From NCBI GenBank assembly GCA_903918755.1, contig CAIXFN010000046.1:1-64000 (forward strand): 64,000 nucleotides of DNA. The letters are read 5' to 3'. Under the pieces are notes generated by a model. That model ran no database searches, was not told where the DNA came from, and saw nothing but the letters and a program-made list of their open reading frames with translations. Both the position numbers and the translations under genes were made by a program. Source of the DNA: an uncultured Pedosphaera sp. (lineage in GTDB: Bacteria; Verrucomicrobiota; Verrucomicrobiia; Limisphaerales; Pedosphaeraceae). Shown here in pieces: positions 4,201 to 64,000 of the stretch; positions within the stretch are counted from its first letter, which is position 1; each line of letters opens with the position of its first letter.

Positions 4201-7200
4201 GCCACCAATAGCGTGGACGTTTCCGGCTGCATCCTCACGGATGATCCGACCACCAATAAATTTGCTCTTCCGTCTGGAACGGTCTTGGCCGCAGGCGGCT
4301 TCGTTTCTTTCCCGCAATCCCAATTGGGATTCACCCTCAATGGTGCAGGCGCGACGCTGTATTTCATCCAACCGGACGGCAACCGCGTTCTGGACACCGT
4401 GCAGTATGGCGCCCAGGCGAATGGCGTTTCCTACGGCCGCTGGCCGGATGGCGCGAATGATTTTTATGCCTTCACCACCAACACCCCGGGATCGCGCAAC
4501 AGCAGCCTCTTCATCGGCGACATCGTCATCAACGAGTTGATGTACGATCCCATCAGCGGCAACGACGCCGATCAATACATTGAACTCTACAACCAGGGCA
4601 CCAACAGTGTTAACCTGGCCGGTTGGCAGTTCACCTCCGGGGTGACGTTCACATTCCCCAGTGTGACCATGGCCCCACGCAGTTACCTGGTGGTCGCCCA
4701 AAACCTGACGAATCTGCTCGCGCGCTACCCCAACCTTAACAGTGGCAACACCGTGGGCAATTACAGCGGCAAGCTATCGCACAACGGCGAACTCGTGCGC
4801 TTATCCCGGCCGCAGGCGTTTTACACGAACACGACGATCCTGGTGGCCGAGGATGAAGTGGCTTATGGCACGGGCGGACGCTGGGGGGAATGGTCCGCCG
4901 GTGGCGGGAGCAGCCTGGAATTGATTGACCCGCATGCGAATCATCGGCTCGCGGCCAATTGGGCGGACAGCGACGAATCGCAAAAATCCGCTTGGGTGAA
5001 CATCGAAAACACCGGGGTGCTGGATAACGGCGGGAATTACGATCCGTCAATCGATTACGCGCAAATTGGGCCACTGGATCTCGGGGAATGCCTGGTGGAC
5101 AACCTCGAGGTGGTGTTCAACGGCATCAACTATGTTTCCAACGGCACGTTTGAGAGCGGCCTGGGCGGCTGGTCATTGCAAGGCGATATGGTGCGTTCCA
5201 GTCTGGAGAACAGCGGCTATGGCGGCAGCGGACATTCCCTGCACATCCGGTGCAGCGACCGCCTTTGGACGGGCGTCAATTCCTGTCAGGTGGCCTTGAA
5301 CGCCAATTCCATGAGCGCTGGCCAGACCGCCACGCTGCGGTTCAAAGCCCGCTGGATTCATGGCTGGCCGGAAGTCCTGCTGCGGCTGAATGGCAATTGG
5401 TTGGAAGCCACGGCCGCTCTGCCCCTGCCGGCGAATCTGGGTTCCCCGGGCGGCCCCAACACCCGTTACGTGACCAATGCCGGACCGGCGGTTTACCAGG
5501 TGACCCACACGCCGAGTCTCCCGGCTGCCAACCAGGCGGCGGTGGTGACGGCCCAGGTGCATGATCCGGAAGGGCAGCAAAACCTGACGCTTTATTATCG
5601 GATTGATCCGGCCACCACATATACCGCCGTGCCCATGACCGACAACGGCACCGGCGGCGACGCGATCGCAGGTGATGGCATTTTCAGTGCCACCATTCCG
5701 GGACAAAGCGCGAACACCCTGGCGGCGTTCTACGTTTCCGCCACGGACAACCGCGGGGCCGTCACCCGCTTTCCCGCGGTGCGCGCCAATGATAATGAGC
5801 CGGTCCGCGAAGCGCTCGTACTGTTCGGCGACGCCAATCCGGGGGGCAGTTTCGGCGTCTATCATTTGTGGCTGACCCAGGCCAACGTGGCCCGCTGGGC
5901 CGGTTTGTCCGATTTGAGCAACGAGGGAACGGACGGAACTTTTGTCAACAATTCCCGGGTGATCTACAATATGCAGGGCCGGTTTGCCGGCAGCCCGGCG
6001 CACCAGGTGTTTGACACCCCATCCGGCAATCTTTGTCACTACAAGTGGATCTTCAATGATGATGACAAATTTCTGGGCGCCACGTCTTTCAACAAAATCC
6101 ATCAACCCGGGAACAGCCCGGGCGATGATACCAGCATCCAGCGCGAGCAATTGGCCAACACGTTTCTGCGCGCGCTGGGGGTGCCGTGGCTTTATCGCCG
6201 CTACGCGGCAGTCTATGTGAACGGCAACCGGCGTGGCACCCTGATGGAGGACACCCAATTGCCCGATAGCGACATGGTGAAGGAGTATTTTCCCAACGAT
6301 ACCGGCGGCACGCTTTATAAAATGCAGCCCTGGTTTGAAATGGCGCCCTTTCCCTCAGGTTCGAGCATCGGCGTGGCCCTGCAGTCCTGGTGCTGCCTGA
6401 TGCCCTACACCACCACCGGCGGTTTTAAAAAACCGGCCCGCTATCGCTACATGTTTGAAATCCGGCGCACCCCGGGTTCGGACAACGACTTTACGAACAT
6501 CTTTTCCCTGGTGGATGCGGCCAGTTCGTACGGCACCCCCAATTATGTGGCCAACATGGAGAACCTGGCCGACATGGAAAACTGGATGCGCGTGTTCGCC
6601 GCCAACCACGCGGCGGGAAATTGGGATTCCTTCGGGGCGCAAAACGCCCAGAATCTTTACGGTTACATTGGCGCCCTGGGCACCAAGTACAGCCTGATGA
6701 TGTGGGACTTCAATATTGTCCTGGGCGTCCCCGGCGCCGGTTACTCCCCTTGGCTGCCGGGCCAAAATCTCTTCACCGTGAATGGTGCCGATTCCAACAC
6801 GCAAAACATTTTCAACCATCCCACTTTCCGTCGCATGTATTGGCGCGCCTTGTCCGAACTGGTCAATGGCCCTCTGGACGTCAGCAACAGTGGCCCCTTG
6901 CTCGTGGCCAAGTACAATGCGTTCGTCGCCAATGGCCTCAGCGTGGAAGATCCGACCGTAAACATAGAACCGTGGCTGACCCAGGCAAAACTCAGCATCG
7001 CCGCGCAACTGGCTGCGGTGAATGCGCCCGGATTCACCGTCAATCCGGCCGTCACCCTCAACAATAACGTTGCCTTTCTCACCGGCCAGGCGCCCATCAA
7101 TGTGGACACCATTTGGATCAACGGCGCAGCTTATCCGCTGAGTTGGACCAGCCTGACCGCCTGGAGTGTCGCCTTCCCGCTGGCCCGTGGCACCAACCGG

Positions 7201-58477: not shown

Positions 58478-58999
58478 ATGGCGGAAAGCATAGATTTTGA
58501 GAGCTTGGTGACCCGGTTTTACGGGCCGCTCTACCAGTTCGCCTTCAGCCTGAGCCGTTCCGAGGCGGACGCCTGCGATCTGACGCAACAGGCCTTCACG
58601 ATTTGGGCGGCCAAAGGGAAGCAATTGCGGGATACCTCCAAAGTGAAAACATGGCTTTTCACCACGCTTCACCGGGAGTTTCTCAATTCCCGCCGGCGCC
58701 AGACCCGTTTTCCCCATGCCGAGCTGGGGACGGTGGAGGCGGAACTGCCCACGGTTTCGCCGGCCTCGATGAACCGGCTTGATTCATCCCAAGTTGTCGC
58801 GACTCTGGCCCTAGTGGATGAGGTGTTTCGCGCCCCGGTGGCGCTGTTTTACCTGCAGGACTATTCGTACCTGGAAATCGCGGAAATTCTGGGAGTGCCC
58901 CTGGGAACCGTCAAGTCGCGCCTGGCGCGCGGCATCAGTCAATTGCAACAACTTTTGGCGCGCGATATCGCCGCCGACCGATCGCCCCCCCAATTGTGA
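58478..58999 (+). CDS. ECF-type RNA polymerase sigma factor
   Basis: 173 residues. Region 2: FYGPLYQFAFSLSRSEADAC, DLTQQAFTIWAAKGKQLRD and KTWLFTTLHREFLNSRRR. Region 4: LDEVFRAPV-like VDEVFRAPVALFYLQDYSYL, then EIAEILGVPLGTVKSRLARG, the -35-binding helix-turn-helix. No region 1.1 or 3, as expected for ECF. Its stop overlaps the start of the next gene (GTGA at 58996), a membrane protein that is probably its anti-sigma factor. The upstream inverted repeat contains GGAAC and may be its own promoter. Confidence 0.93.
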   Translation: MAESIDFESLVTRFYGPLYQFAFSLSRSEADACDLTQQAFTIWAAKGKQLRDTSKVKTWLFTTLHREFLNSRRRQTRFPHAELGTVEAELPTVSPASMNRLDSSQVVATLALVDEVFRAPVALFYLQDYSYLEIAEILGVPLGTVKSRLARGISQLQQLLARDIAADRSPPQL

Positions 59000-59751
59000 A
59001 CATCAACGAAGCCCAACAAGTGCTCTTGTACTACCGGCCCGGGATGGCTGGCCGGGAGGATCCGGAAATGCTGGCCGCTTTGGACCTGGCGAAGACCAGC
59101 CCCGAACTCGCGAAATGGCTGGCCGAACATTGCGCGCGGCAGGAGCTGTTGTGCGAAAAGTTCCGACAATTGTCACCCCCTCCCGGTTTGCGGGAACAGA
59201 TCATTTCGGAACAAGCCGCCCGTGACCGGCAAATTCGTCAACGTCCGCGAAAGGTGCTCGCCATGGCCCTGGGCGCGGTGGTGCTCCTTGTGGTAGGAGG
59301 AATTTGGTGGGGGCATGGCCCGGCGGAAAACAGCCTGGTCAACTACCAGAATCGGATGGTCGGCGGGGCATTGCGGTCGTACGTCATGGATCTCACCACC
59401 AATAGCCAAGCCCAGATCCGGTCCTACCTCATGAGCAGCGGGGCGCCTTCTGATTTCAAACTCCCGACTGGGCTCCAGCGGGCCACCCTCGTGGGATGTG
59501 CCGTTGAGGGTTGGCAGGCGGGCAAAGTTTCCATGATTTGTTTTCAGACCGGCCGACGACTGGCAGCCGGAACGCAAAGTGATCTGTGGCTGTTTGTGGT
59601 GGACCGGGCCACGGTCAGCGGTGCTACCGACCATAGTGATCCACAATTTTCACGCATCCACGATAAGGTCTCCGCCACCTGGACGCACGGTGACAAACTT
59701 TACCTCCTCACCATTGACGGTGATGAGCGGACCCTGCGGCAATATTTATGA
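58996..59751 (+). CDS. probable anti-sigma factor, membrane protein
   Basis: 251 residues with a GTG start inside the sigma gene stop. An N-terminal cytoplasmic part (about 1-85: LLYYRPGMAGREDPEMLAAL, ELAKWLAEHCARQELLCEKF) is followed by one membrane segment (VLAMALGAVVLLVVGGIWW, about 88-106) and a 145-residue outer domain. The LxxHCxxCxxL-type zinc motif of ZAS anti-sigmas is not present: there is a HCARQELLC arrangement instead. The role is inferred from overlap with the ECF gene and topology. Confidence 0.75.
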   Translation: MNINEAQQVLLYYRPGMAGREDPEMLAALDLAKTSPELAKWLAEHCARQELLCEKFRQLSPPPGLREQIISEQAARDRQIRQRPRKVLAMALGAVVLLVVGGIWWGHGPAENSLVNYQNRMVGGALRSYVMDLTTNSQAQIRSYLMSSGAPSDFKLPTGLQRATLVGCAVEGWQAGKVSMICFQTGRRLAAGTQSDLWLFVVDRATVSGATDHSDPQFSRIHDKVSATWTHGDKLYLLTIDGDERTLRQYL

Positions 59752-59781: not shown

Positions 59782-60654
59782 TCAATTTCCAGTGCTCATG
59801 TGCTGAATTATCCAGTCAAAATCCCGGGAAGATCCGGGCTCCACAAAAAACGGTAAAGCGGCCGCGTCGGGTCGAGCTGGACGGACTGTATTGGGATCCA
59901 GCCATTTATGGGCGGTGGCATGTCCGTCGGCGAAGGCAAACGCAGTGGCACCGTTGTGGAAAGAAGCCGGCAAGTCCGTCCATTCGTTATACCCTTCCGA
60001 ATCGCCGTCCGAATTCGAGTACTTGAGCGCGGCTCGATTCAGGAAATAACCGTCCCCGACGCTGTCCGGGTGTTCATCCAAAAAGGTAAAAATGTCCGCG
60101 GGTCGCGGAATCTGGGTGGATTTGAAAAATTGGCGGTAATTGGGATTGTTTAGATTCACACCCGTGGTCGAATACTTCCCGGCATCCCCCACCATGGCAT
60201 TCAGGGAATAACTGCGCACCCGGTGATCCCACCCGGCGCTGCGCTGTACGGCGGCCAAAGTGCGATCGGAAGGACAGCGGTAAACCGAGACCTTTCCGCT
60301 GGTGTAGGCTCCCAAACTGGCTCCGGTGATGGTGGCGGCGTTGGTATTATCCGGACTCAGGTCCCAGGTCATGACGTTGTTGACCCAGTTGAGATTCGTC
60401 CGATAGGCAGATCCCCCCAAACCGAGATTATAAGGCAGGTAATTTTCGTGTTCGTCCGCGTACAACTGGCAAGCCAGTTCCAATTGCCGGGTATTGTTCA
60501 GGCAGGCAAGACCATTGGCCCGTTCGCGCGCGCGCGCCAGAGCGGGCAACAACAATCCGGCCAGGATCGCAATAATCGCGATCACCACCAACAATTCGAT
60601 CAGGGTAAACCCGCGCTGGGATCGGACCCCGTTGTTGATTTGTTTGGACTGCAT
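59782..60654 (-). CDS. prepilin-type cleavage/methylation domain protein
   Basis: 290 residues. Prepilin signal [20 protein letters not shown] (cleavage after Gly, then FTLIE) and a hydrophobic helix, then [20 protein letters not shown], a usual follow-on in Planctomycetes and Verrucomicrobia pseudopilins, and a C-terminal [21 protein letters not shown] block with the conserved FADGHA. Processed by prepilin peptidase and likely part of a type II secretion or pilus-like assembly. These genomes often carry dozens of these proteins. The frame opens at 60741; ATG 60654 gives the normal short leader. Converges with the anti-sigma gene. Confidence 0.88.
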
Positions 60655-60979
60655 GACCAGCAAGAGCTTGATTAATCTAATTTGGAGCAACCATCCCCGG
60701 ACAAGCCGCACCATGCTCAATCGCCCGTCCCGGATAACCAACAGGCGCGCTATTCATAGCACGGCGGGTCCGAAATGGCAAGTTGACCCCACACGCAAGC
60801 CGGGAAGGGGCTTGCGGCCGGCCTTGCCGAAGGTGTCATACGGAAAAGCAAGAACCGCCCGCCCTCATTTGAGGACGGACGGTCGAAGTTTTCACAGGCA
60901 ACAAGCTTTGGAATCTCGCGGGGTTCCACTTAAAACCCGTGCCCGAAAATGAACCGGCGCGTTCCGCACCGGCGTAAAC
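60655..60979. other. 325 bp between pseudopilin and glnA
   Basis: Both neighbours read leftward. It contains the glnA terminator (60841-60882) and, presumably, the pseudopilin promoter. No gene is seen. Confidence 0.6.
60841..60882 (-). terminator. intrinsic terminator of glnA
   Basis: Minus-strand stem CCGTCCGTCCTC (60882-60871) with GAGGGCGGGCGG (60866-60855), AAAT loop, 12 pairs of which two are G-T, followed by TTCTTGCTTTTCC. About 100 bp after the stop. Confidence 0.7.
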
Positions 60980-62011
60980 TCACTTGCCGGGCAGGGGCAC
61001 CGTGGCAATGGTCTGCAGGATGCGGCCAGCGATTTTGTACGGGTCGCCCTGTGAATTCGGCCGGCGGTCTTCCAGATACCCTTTGTAACCATTGTTGACA
61101 AAGCTGTGCGGGACGCGCACGGAGGCGCCGCGATTGGCGATGCCGTAGTTAAACTTGTCAATCGACTGGGTTTCATGCAGCCCGGTGAGGCGGAGATGGT
61201 TGTCCGGCCCGTAAACTGCAATGTGTTCGTTCTTGTATTTGTCGAACGCGGCCATGAGGGCTTCAAAGTAGGCCTTGCCGCCGACTTCGCGCATGTACTT
61301 GGTGGAGAAATTGGAGTGCATCCCGGAACCGTTCCAGTCGACATCCTTGCCCAGCGGCTTGCAGTGCCAGACGACGGTGACTTCGTACTGTTCGCAGAGG
61401 CGCATCAGGAGGTAACGGGCCATCCACATCTGGTCGGCGGCCGTTTTCGAGCCTTTGCCGAAGATCTGGAATTCCCACTGGCCCTTGGCCACTTCGGCGT
61501 TGATGCCCTCGTGGTTGATGCCGGCATCCAGGCAGATGTCCAAGTGGGTGTCCACGATTTCACGGGCGATTTCGCCCACGTTTTCATAGCCCACACCGGT
61601 GTAGTACTTGCCTTGGGGAGGGGGGAAACCGCCGCCCGTGGGGAAGCCCAGGGGGACGCCGTCACGATACAGAAAATACTCCTGCTCGAAGCCAAACCAG
61701 GTATCGGGGTCATCCAGGATCGTGGCGCGGGCGTTCGTCGAATGCGGGGTCTTGCCATCCGGCATCATGACTTCGCACATTACCAACACGCCGTTCTTCT
61801 TCGTCGGATCGGGATACACCGCCACGGGCTTGAGCATGCAATCCGAGCTGTGGCCTTCGGCCTGGCGGGTCGAGCTGCCGTCAAATCCCCACATGGGGAG
61901 CTGTTCCAGGGTCGGGAAGGCATCGAAATCCTTGATCTGGGTCTTGCCACGGAGGTTGGCGACGGGTTCGTAGCCGTCCAGCCAAATGTATTCGAGTTTA
62001 TATTTCGCCAT
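60980..62011 (-). CDS. glnA: glutamine synthetase, GSII (eukaryote-like) type
   Basis: 343 residues, far shorter than GSI (about 470) and right for GSII. Makes glutamine from glutamate, ammonia and ATP. Signatures: [11 protein letters not shown] (beta-grasp), [39 protein letters not shown] and [16 protein letters not shown] (catalytic domain with metal and ammonia-site residues). GSII is decameric and not adenylylated, so control would be at transcription. It reads leftward, ends in an intrinsic terminator, and has a sigma-54 promoter match upstream. The other side of the upstream gap holds the kinase-like gene. Confidence 0.94.
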
Positions 62012-62327
62012 GTCTGTAATGGTAAGAAGTTATTGTTGTACTATTGTTGATTTCCACTGTCCGACTTCGTCAGTGGTGATCCAATTAGCACATGAAGTGC
62101 CAGTTCGGAAGAAAAATTTCGCGGCCGCTCAAAATGTTCTTCTGGACCGAAATTCCCTCCGAAAATGCGTTGGCAAAATTCACTGTCCGGGCCTCGAGGG
62201 GGTAGATCGCGTTGGTCAATTTTGCACACGCTGCCTAATTTGAATCCAATTGGTTGACCTCGTGCAGCGTTTTCTGGCAAGGAGAAGGCTTTGCAGTTCG
62301 TCGCGGTTACGGCATATTGCCGCACAC
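62012..62327. other. 316 bp divergent gap between glnA and the kinase-like gene
   Basis: It holds the sigma-54 promoter for glnA (62089-62103). I find no clear NtrC site, no hairpin and no convincing promoter for the rightward gene. Confidence 0.6.
62089..62103 (-). promoter_or_regulatory. sigma-54 (-24/-12) promoter of glnA
   Basis: On the minus strand: TGGCAC TTCATG TGC, that is GG at 62102-62101 and GC at 62090-62089 with exactly 10 bases between them. TGGCAC is a full match for the -24 element; the -12 element is GTGC against TTGC. The start site would be near 62077, giving a 65-nt leader to ATG 62011. Position and gene (glutamine synthetase) fit nitrogen control. Confidence 0.72.
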
Positions 62328-62726
62328 ATGTTGCAGGTGAAGGACACCCTGCGGGCGACGGTACAATTGACGTTCGACGGCCGGGTTTTCAAAACCTACC
62401 ATGGCCCGGACGCCCAGTCCCGTTTTGCCCGTGAAGTGCAGGTCCTTCGGCATCTTGCCGCGCGGGGGTGCGACTTCGTGCCGCGCCTGCTGGAGGCGGA
62501 TCCTGGTATCCCGCGTATTATCACGACCAACTGTGGCAGCCGGGTGGAGCACCTGGACGAGGCCCGTTCCCGGGAAATTTTTGCTGAGCTCGAAAATTTC
62601 GGGGTACGGCATGACGACCAAGACAAGCGCAATATCACTTACCGGCAGGCCGACGGCCGGTTCTGCATCATTGATTTCGAGTACGCCACCCTGCTGGACC
62701 CGTTGCAAATTCCACCCCATGATTGA
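62328..62726 (+). CDS. miniature protein-kinase-like protein (132 aa)
   Basis: 132 residues with kinase-like landmarks in order: a Lys in GRVFKTYHG (about 24), a Glu in REVQVLRHL (about 39), a hinge-like IITTNCGS, then GVRHDDQDKRNI, resembling the catalytic HxDxxxxN loop (Asp, then Asn), and CIIDFEYATLLDP, resembling the DFG metal loop as DFE. The C-lobe after DFE is almost absent, so it is half the size of a normal kinase domain. It may be an active minimal kinase, a pseudokinase or related to small-molecule kinases. I chose ATG 62328; the frame opens at 62250. Its last 8 bp overlap the PP2C gene, implying coupled expression. Confidence 0.65.
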   Translation: MLQVKDTLRATVQLTFDGRVFKTYHGPDAQSRFAREVQVLRHLAARGCDFVPRLLEADPGIPRIITTNCGSRVEHLDEARSREIFAELENFGVRHDDQDKRNITYRQADGRFCIIDFEYATLLDPLQIPPHD

Positions 62727-63582
62727 AAATTCCCCGGAGGTTTCCCCACCATATCCCCAAAAGCTCCTCTGGCATGGCTGGACGGATCGCGGGCGCGTTC
62801 GGCGCAATAATGAAGATTCCTTTCTGGGGCTGCGCTTTGATGCCCGGGAAGTCCAGATATTGGGGAAATTTGGGGAAGCCCCCACCGCGAACATGGATTT
62901 TGCTTTTGCCGTGAGCGACGGGATGGGCGGAGCCATGGCGGGCGAGTTCGCCAGCCGGATTGCCGTGGAAAAAATCACCACCCTGCTGCCACGGACGTTC
63001 CGCCAGACCGCCAGCGGTTTCCAAGCCGGCTTTGGGGATTTGTTCACCGAATTGTATGATCAGGTGCACCGGGCCTTGCGGTACGTGGGGGGCAGCTATG
63101 AGGAATGCTCGGGAATGGAAACGACGCTGAGCCTGTGCTGGTTCACCCCGGGATGGATGTACTTTGCGCATATTGGGGACAGCCGCATCTATTATCTACC
63201 GGCCCGCGAAGGCGGTCTTAAACAACTGAGCCACGACGACACCCATGTGGGATGGCTGTTTCGCCAGGGGCAGCTCAATGAGCGCGAAGCCCGCAATCAT
63301 CCCCGTCGCAATGTGCTGCAGAAAGCGCTGGGCGGAGGGAATCAATTTGTGGATCCGCAGGTCGGCGCGGTCGCCATTGAACCGGGAGACATGTTCCTCC
63401 TGTGTTCGGATGGCTTGACCGAAGGCCTTTACAACCACCACATATTGGAAATCCTGCGCCCGGCAGCGGCAACCCCGGACGGTCCGGCATTCCCGGAGAA
63501 TCCCGCCCGGGAATTGGTCAATACGGCGGTGGAGCGAGATGGGCGCGATAACACAACCGCCGTAGTCATCGCACTCAAATGA
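62719..63582 (+). CDS. PP2C-type serine/threonine phosphatase
   Basis: 287 residues. PP2C motifs: TDRGRVRRNNEDSFLG (motif 1, metal Asp in NNEDS), FAVSDGMGGAMAGEFAS (motif 2, metal Asp in SDGMGG), GMETTLSLCWF, YFAHIGDSRIYYL (GDSR), FLLCSDGLTEGL (SDGLT) and GRDNTTAVVI (RDN metal). All metal ligands are present. It dephosphorylates Ser/Thr proteins in the cytoplasm; no membrane segment is seen. It overlaps the small kinase-like gene by 8 bp and is followed 25 bp later by a sulfatase gene. The open frame reaches 62401 but the ATG at 62719 fits the domain. Confidence 0.95.
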   Translation: MIENSPEVSPPYPQKLLWHGWTDRGRVRRNNEDSFLGLRFDAREVQILGKFGEAPTANMDFAFAVSDGMGGAMAGEFASRIAVEKITTLLPRTFRQTASGFQAGFGDLFTELYDQVHRALRYVGGSYEECSGMETTLSLCWFTPGWMYFAHIGDSRIYYLPAREGGLKQLSHDDTHVGWLFRQGQLNEREARNHPRRNVLQKALGGGNQFVDPQVGAVAIEPGDMFLLCSDGLTEGLYNHHILEILRPAAATPDGPAFPENPARELVNTAVERDGRDNTTAVVIALK

Positions 63583-63607
63583 AAGCCCGGACGGCTTGAA
63601 TCCATTT

Positions 63608-64000
63608 ATGCAAGCCTCCCCCCAAGCCATGAATCCTAACCCAGCCGGGCGAAAAAACGGAATCGGGCTGCTCGCCCTGGCGATCAGCTTTTTCCTCACC
63701 GGCCCCGTTTTTGCGGGCGCGGTGGAATCGCGGAAGCCTAATGTCATCATGATCATGGCGGATGACCAGGGGAGTGTGGACGCCGGCTGTTACGGCGCAA
63801 AGGACCTGGTCACACCCGGCATCGATGCGCTCGCGGCGCGGGGCGTGCGCTTTACGCAATTTTATTCCGCGGCCCCGGTCTGCTCGCCCTCCCGGGCCGG
63901 GTTTTTGACCGGCCGCTATCCCTGGCTGGCGGGCATGCCGAACAACGGTCCCGGACCACCGACAGAAAAGGACGACCTGTTGGACACGTTGACGGGAGAC
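63608..64000 (+). CDS. secreted sulfatase (partial, cut by window end)
   Basis: The first 131 residues of a type I (formylglycine-dependent) sulfatase. A signal peptide (GLLALAISFFLTGPVFAG) is followed by RKPNVIMIMADDQGSVDAGC, with the Asp-Asp metal site, and the modification motif CSPSRAGFLTGR (Cys becomes formylglycine). Related enzymes remove sulfate from polysaccharides and are numerous in Planctomycetes and Verrucomicrobia. ATG 63608 and ATG 63629 are both in frame. The C-terminus lies outside the window. Confidence 0.92.
   Translation, partial: MQASPQAMNPNPAGRKNGIGLLALAISFFLTGPVFAGAVESRKPNVIMIMADDQGSVDAGCYGAKDLVTPGIDALAARGVRFTQFYSAAPVCSPSRAGFLTGRYPWLAGMPNNGPGPPTEKDDLLDTLTGD

Follow-up and report, generated by a model that had tools for sequence, protein, structure and literature searches.

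In the bacterial phylum Verrucomicrobiota, a miniature kinase gene and a PP2C-type phosphatase gene occur together with a gene for type-II glutamine synthetase (GSII). We found the three genes near the end of a 64,000-nucleotide stretch from an uncultured Pedosphaera sp. (the window, Table 1). Kinase and PP2C may be a dedicated switch in which the kinase most likely phosphorylates the adjacent GSII and PP2C removes the phosphate, a reading we consider evenly balanced between right and wrong. Slightly below even, in our judgment, is the fuller proposal: reversible phosphorylation by the dedicated couple would switch GSII, much as GlnE adenylylation does type-I enzymes, and the kinase, at about 125 residues and with almost no C-lobe, would be one of the smallest active protein kinases in nature. 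GSII as third partner was not in the sequence-only reading of this DNA; it was revealed by neighbor clustering and likely gives the kinase/PP2C pair a purpose. In the open-access literature, we found nothing relevant on the mini kinase or on a GSII kinase in Verrucomicrobia, and a kinase/PP2C/GSII switch appears to be undescribed so far.

Table 1. Positions of the three genes and their landmarks in the window
Feature	Position	Strand	Remarks
GSII (type-II glutamine synthetase, glnII type)	60980..62011	-	343 aa; divergently transcribed partner
Sigma54-type -24/-12 element TGGCACTTCATGTGCT	62087..62102	-	reads towards GSII
Mini kinase	62328..62726	+	132 aa; kinase fold cut down to N-lobe, helix E, catalytic loop, DFE
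K22, ATP-anchoring (beta3) lysine, in VFKTY	62391..62393	+	no variation in 80 sequences; placed by homology to kinase beta3
E36, alpha-C glutamate	62433..62435	+	invariant (80 sequences); inside model helix 29-45
Catalytic loop H95-D-D97-QDKR-N102 (HxDxxxxN)	62610..62633	+	H95, D97, N102 invariant (80 sequences)
Metal-binding D116-F117-E118 (DFE)	62673..62681	+	invariant (80 sequences)
Overlap of mini kinase and PP2C frames	62719..62726	+	8 bp; from ORF coordinates
PP2C-type Ser/Thr phosphatase, Stp1/PphA-like	62719..63582	+	287 aa; all metal motifs

The sequence-only reading was correct about the 132-residue kinase-like ORF and its 8-bp overlap with the PP2C ORF, and the Lys, Glu, HxDxxxxN and DFE landmarks that it described are indeed present in kinase order. 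The genomes sampled in this work are species representatives, many of them metagenome-assembled genomes (MAGs). One scan of species genomes, which reaches close relatives only, recovered 80 loci with 60-80% identity to the mini kinase. An alignment of 80 homologues contains 34 invariant columns and every catalytic landmark is among them, so conservation of the landmarks in homologues is borne out. The aligned homologues coincide at Met1, and since in several of them a stop lies just 0-3 codons before it, the N-terminus is genuine. Homologues end about 8-30 residues past DFE (14 in the window protein). Invariant residues, common N-terminus, and length rule out a chance ORF, a truncation or a frameshift remnant.

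We read the distribution of the family within Verrucomicrobiota, as our search beyond the phylum was shallow. The mini kinase has matches in 90 of 383 near-complete Verrucomicrobiota genomes and is present in 26 of 58 close relatives, with orthologues spread over class Verrucomicrobiae; plasmids gave just three weak partial matches, from Streptomyces. Three genome records with this verrucomicrobial locus (L002, L007, L043) go under the names Akkermansia muciniphila, Proteobacteria or Klebsiella, titles that look like wrong MAG names. Flanking the three genes, the window contains a gene for an ECF-type sigma factor that shares 4 bp with a likely membrane anti-sigma gene (58478-59751, +), a prepilin-like protein with a leader typical of verrucomicrobial pseudopilins (59782-60741, -) and the start of a sulfatase gene that is cut by the window end (63596-64000, +).

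To describe the fold, we used an AlphaFold2 model run with the 80-sequence alignment (pLDDT 89.7, pTM 0.84). The predicted order is beta1-beta2-beta3, helix C, beta4-beta5, one helix (78-89), the catalytic loop, two strands, DFE, and 14 residues. A five-strand N-lobe with helix C, the hinge and the catalytic loop are all seen in the model, while the activation segment and helices F to I are absent. Thus, the earlier expectations of a kinase-like structure and of almost no C-lobe both hold: N-lobe, one helix and catalytic core are present, the remaining C-lobe is missing, and kinase folds are what the model matches in the PDB, with Z up to 12.8. The top Foldseek match was Ark1 (E 9.6e-7, TM-score 0.69 by query), and Foldseek also matched OspG, with a TM-score of 0.59-0.61 by query; with VIA-align, the top PDB matches were PRPK/Bud32 (Z 12.8) and Rio2 (Z 12.6). 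Searching PDB sequences with the mini kinase profile gave nothing significant, and Ark1 was absent at E up to 1. The family is thus remote from solved kinases.

In the mini kinase, the beta3 Lys, alpha-C Glu, HxD Asp, Asn, and DF(x) Asp follow one another as in protein kinases and are invariant in the 80 sequences. The glycine-rich GxGxxG loop of Hanks-type kinases is not in the mini kinase, whose residues 3-14 (QVKDTLRATVQL) have conserved K5, T7, and R9 instead, nor is there a Hanks-type activation segment ending in APE followed by helices F-I. Pfam APH matches the window protein at 30.0 bits (curated cut-off 23.2) and all 80 family members; Kdo scores 17.4 bits, below its cut-off of 21.3, and Kdo/WaaP matches 58 of the 80. 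For both models, the best stretch in the window protein is the catalytic core only. This likeness to the Kdo/WaaP (PF06293) and APH (PF01636) kinases does not extend to size or known targets, as those families have about 200-300 residues and act on lipopolysaccharide or small molecules; a full C-lobe with substrate-binding helices, a trait of both, is absent from the mini kinase model. As modeled, the mini kinase is among the smallest complete kinase cores known and, judged from its intact residues, it is probably catalytic.

Other small kinases share some of these traits. OspG and SteC, minimal kinases with a depleted C-lobe, are secreted pathogen effectors (PMC13395416). The mini kinase has likewise lost most of the C-lobe, but both effectors are larger (OspG chain, 169-171 aa; SteC core, 210-429). 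We know of no cognate phosphatase for either. The atypical kinases Bud32/PRPK and RIO also have a compact kinase core, but more of the C-lobe helices remain in them (223-292 residues in solved chains), and they function within KEOPS or in ribosome assembly. Ark1/ArkI (PDB 8yv5, 7vnx), another small kinase fold, is an archaeal RNA kinase that acts on tRNA U47 (PMC9095486). It differs from the mini kinase in that target, in its size (solved chains of 171-216 residues), in being unpaired with PP2C or GSII and in giving no sequence-profile match. That Ark1 is the best single Foldseek match and that the Pfam match is to APH, a small-molecule kinase family, could mean that the mini kinase acts on RNA or a small molecule, or carries out another transfer such as AMPylation. 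We regard this as very improbable, since the fold is equally similar to Bud32 and RIO, the profile fails to recognize Ark1, and a PP2C partner, several times fused to the kinase, fits a phospho-Ser/Thr protein.

The phosphatase gene is complete, as had been proposed: all metal-ligand motifs (RRNNED, SDGMGG, GDSR, SDG, RDN) are present, and the PP2C_2 match (1.4e-16) is above cut-off. Against the Stp1/IreP model, the protein scores 173 bits, under the equivalog cut-off of 230. The search for the pair in other genomes revealed a conserved association of kinase and PP2C, in some cases as a natural fusion of the two genes. PP2C lies directly 3′ of the mini kinase in all but one of the first 106 loci. 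In a larger locus set, where some genomes are counted more than once through duplicate records, PP2C is downstream of 136 kinase ORFs, 14 (13 distinct) are fused to it in frame and 6 have no PP2C nearby. The fusion state undergoes 6 changes on the mini kinase tree. A model of the fused protein (pTM 0.62) has no fixed domain arrangement and no defined interface. In L043 (6001-9000), the kinase gene is beside GSII with no adjacent PP2C, followed by amt and PII genes on the other strand.

The kinase, PP2C, and GSII genes remain linked through rearrangement. Among the larger loci, GSII is divergent from kinase-PP2C in 75 and the order kinase-PP2C-GSII is codirectional in 8. In nine loci of family f53, it is PP2C that is divergent from GSII, and the kinase gene lies at a separate site in the genome; one such genome has it directly after a gene that we assigned from its sequence as mgtE-like. 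In L143 (3788-4183), a kinase gene apart from PP2C/GSII shares 4 bp with the tail end of a gene for an mgtE-like magnesium transporter. In genome G383, there are two kinase-PP2C fusions with a separate GSII beside each; the second GSII is only 47% identical to the window's. Such co-movement and co-duplication are as expected of a functional unit.

The constant coupling and repeated fusion to PP2C could also mean that the mini kinase is a nucleotide-binding regulatory subunit of the phosphatase that senses ATP/ADP, with another kinase doing the phosphorylation. The lack of a glycine-rich loop, activation segment, and C-lobe helices F-I would agree with such a role. We nonetheless think it improbable, because invariance of all catalytic residues, including D97, in 80 sequences is unusual for a pseudokinase, and because in the nine loci with PP2C beside GSII the kinase does not adjoin.

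Association with GSII is strong across genomes. In 52 of 100 loci, a count not adjusted for short contigs, GSII lies immediately upstream of the mini kinase and on the opposite strand. Across the 383 phylum genomes, 89 carry kinase and GSII, 9 carry GSII only and 1 carries the kinase only. Eight of the nine GSII-only genomes carry a GSII that is ~60% identical, and the sole kinase-only genome (G259) has just a remote paralogue, which forms part of a methyltransferase-kinase protein encoded in a glycan-type cluster. At L142 (5580-5876, within ORF 4635-6002), where the gene cluster is of glycan type, a methyltransferase-like domain is followed by a remote kinase relative fused to it. Within the 58 relatives, GSII is present in 26/26 genomes with the kinase, directly adjacent to it in 23, versus 3/32 genomes without it (one of the 3 fragmentary). 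Fisher tests, which do not correct for kinship, gave p = 3e-13 for the 58 relatives and 2e-75 for the 383 genomes. When ancestry was taken into account on a GlnD tree of 52 relatives, we obtained about 8 concordant and 0 discordant independent pairs (median p 0.008). Diverged GSII (73-74%) and diverged kinase (51-53%) also go together in the same genomes. The co-occurrence is evidence of shared function; it does not single out the substrate.

Comparison of 135 kinase-positive with 11 kinase-negative GSII sequences gave no clean candidate for a Ser/Thr that tracks the kinase. T70, S188, T237, and S303 track it partially, with T237 and S303 looking ordinary for GSII. The window's own genome carries a second GSII, 86% identical, on contig C86 (L211: 3326-4342) with no adjoining kinase/PP2C and no sigma54-type promoter.

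The intergenic region contains a conserved promoter-like element. GGCA-N7-TGC[T/A] reads towards GSII in 69 of 75 GSII/mini-kinase intergenic regions and towards the kinase in none, typically 70-100 bases ahead of the GSII start. A related strict pattern occurs in 60 of the 75 regions, compared to 0-1 in mononucleotide shuffles. Some GSII genes without the kinase also carry the element. By its sequence, the element fits a sigma54 nitrogen promoter for GSII.

A different placement of the pair within nitrogen metabolism is that it modifies PII/GlnK, AmtB, GlnD, or an NtrC-type regulator, with the GSII link reflecting a common pathway only. The mini kinase neighborhoods include amt in 24 of 100 and PII in 17 of 100, and one linked PII has a Ser in an RGSEY T-loop. 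A cyanobacteria-like variant would have PII phosphorylated at Ser49 and the PphA-like PP2C reversing this; the structure matches of the window PP2C include cyanobacterial PphA (2j82, 2xzv), which dephosphorylates PII-Ser49 in cyanobacteria, where the PII kinase is unidentified (PMC4285133; PMC11863333). The resemblance lies in the use of a PP2C phosphatase in nitrogen control. Here, in contrast, kinase and phosphatase are encoded together and it is GSII that tracks with the pair, while GlnD, which implies ordinary uridylylation, is still present. Since PII and GlnD occur in nearly all relatives irrespective of the kinase, and only GSII tracks it, PII is a less likely target; the same distribution weakens the idea that PII phosphorylation takes the place of GlnD. 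Taken jointly, the variant and the other nitrogen-protein targets seem unlikely to us.

GSII in general does not need the mini kinase, since none adjoins rhizobial GSII (Sinorhizobium GSII is 76-78% identical to the window's over 99%). The divergent neighbor there is a DUF2735 gene, which we take to be gstI. In S. meliloti, the small gene upstream of glnII carries the annotation gstI, glutamine synthetase translation inhibitor (PMC3596328). Both gstI and the mini kinase gene are small and divergent from GSII genes that are closely related to each other, but the gstI product is no kinase: it is a small DUF2735 protein to which inhibition of translation is ascribed. It thus seems that unrelated small regulators, two in number, have taken up one and the same position next to these closely related GSII genes.

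Under the proposed switching of GSII, mini kinase and PP2C would be the two arms of a reversible-phosphorylation switch in ammonium assimilation. The kinase would transfer phosphate to a Ser/Thr (possibly Tyr) of the neighboring GSII, presumably GSII itself rather than a GSII-bound protein, and PP2C would take it off; the direction of the effect on GSII is a step that we infer. From the lack of most of the C-lobe, we would expect the substrate to be bound by docking that involves the target itself, PP2C or oligomerization.

Type-I glutamine synthetase is controlled by adenylylation. To our knowledge, bacterial type-II enzymes have no dedicated covalent switch; if our reading is true, the conserved kinase-phosphatase-GSII module would be one. 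Such a module would also demonstrate that a small part of the kinase fold suffices for regulated phosphotransfer, as the homologues end so soon after DFE, and it would suggest a function for proteins that the profile libraries we used recognize only as distant APH/Kdo kinases.
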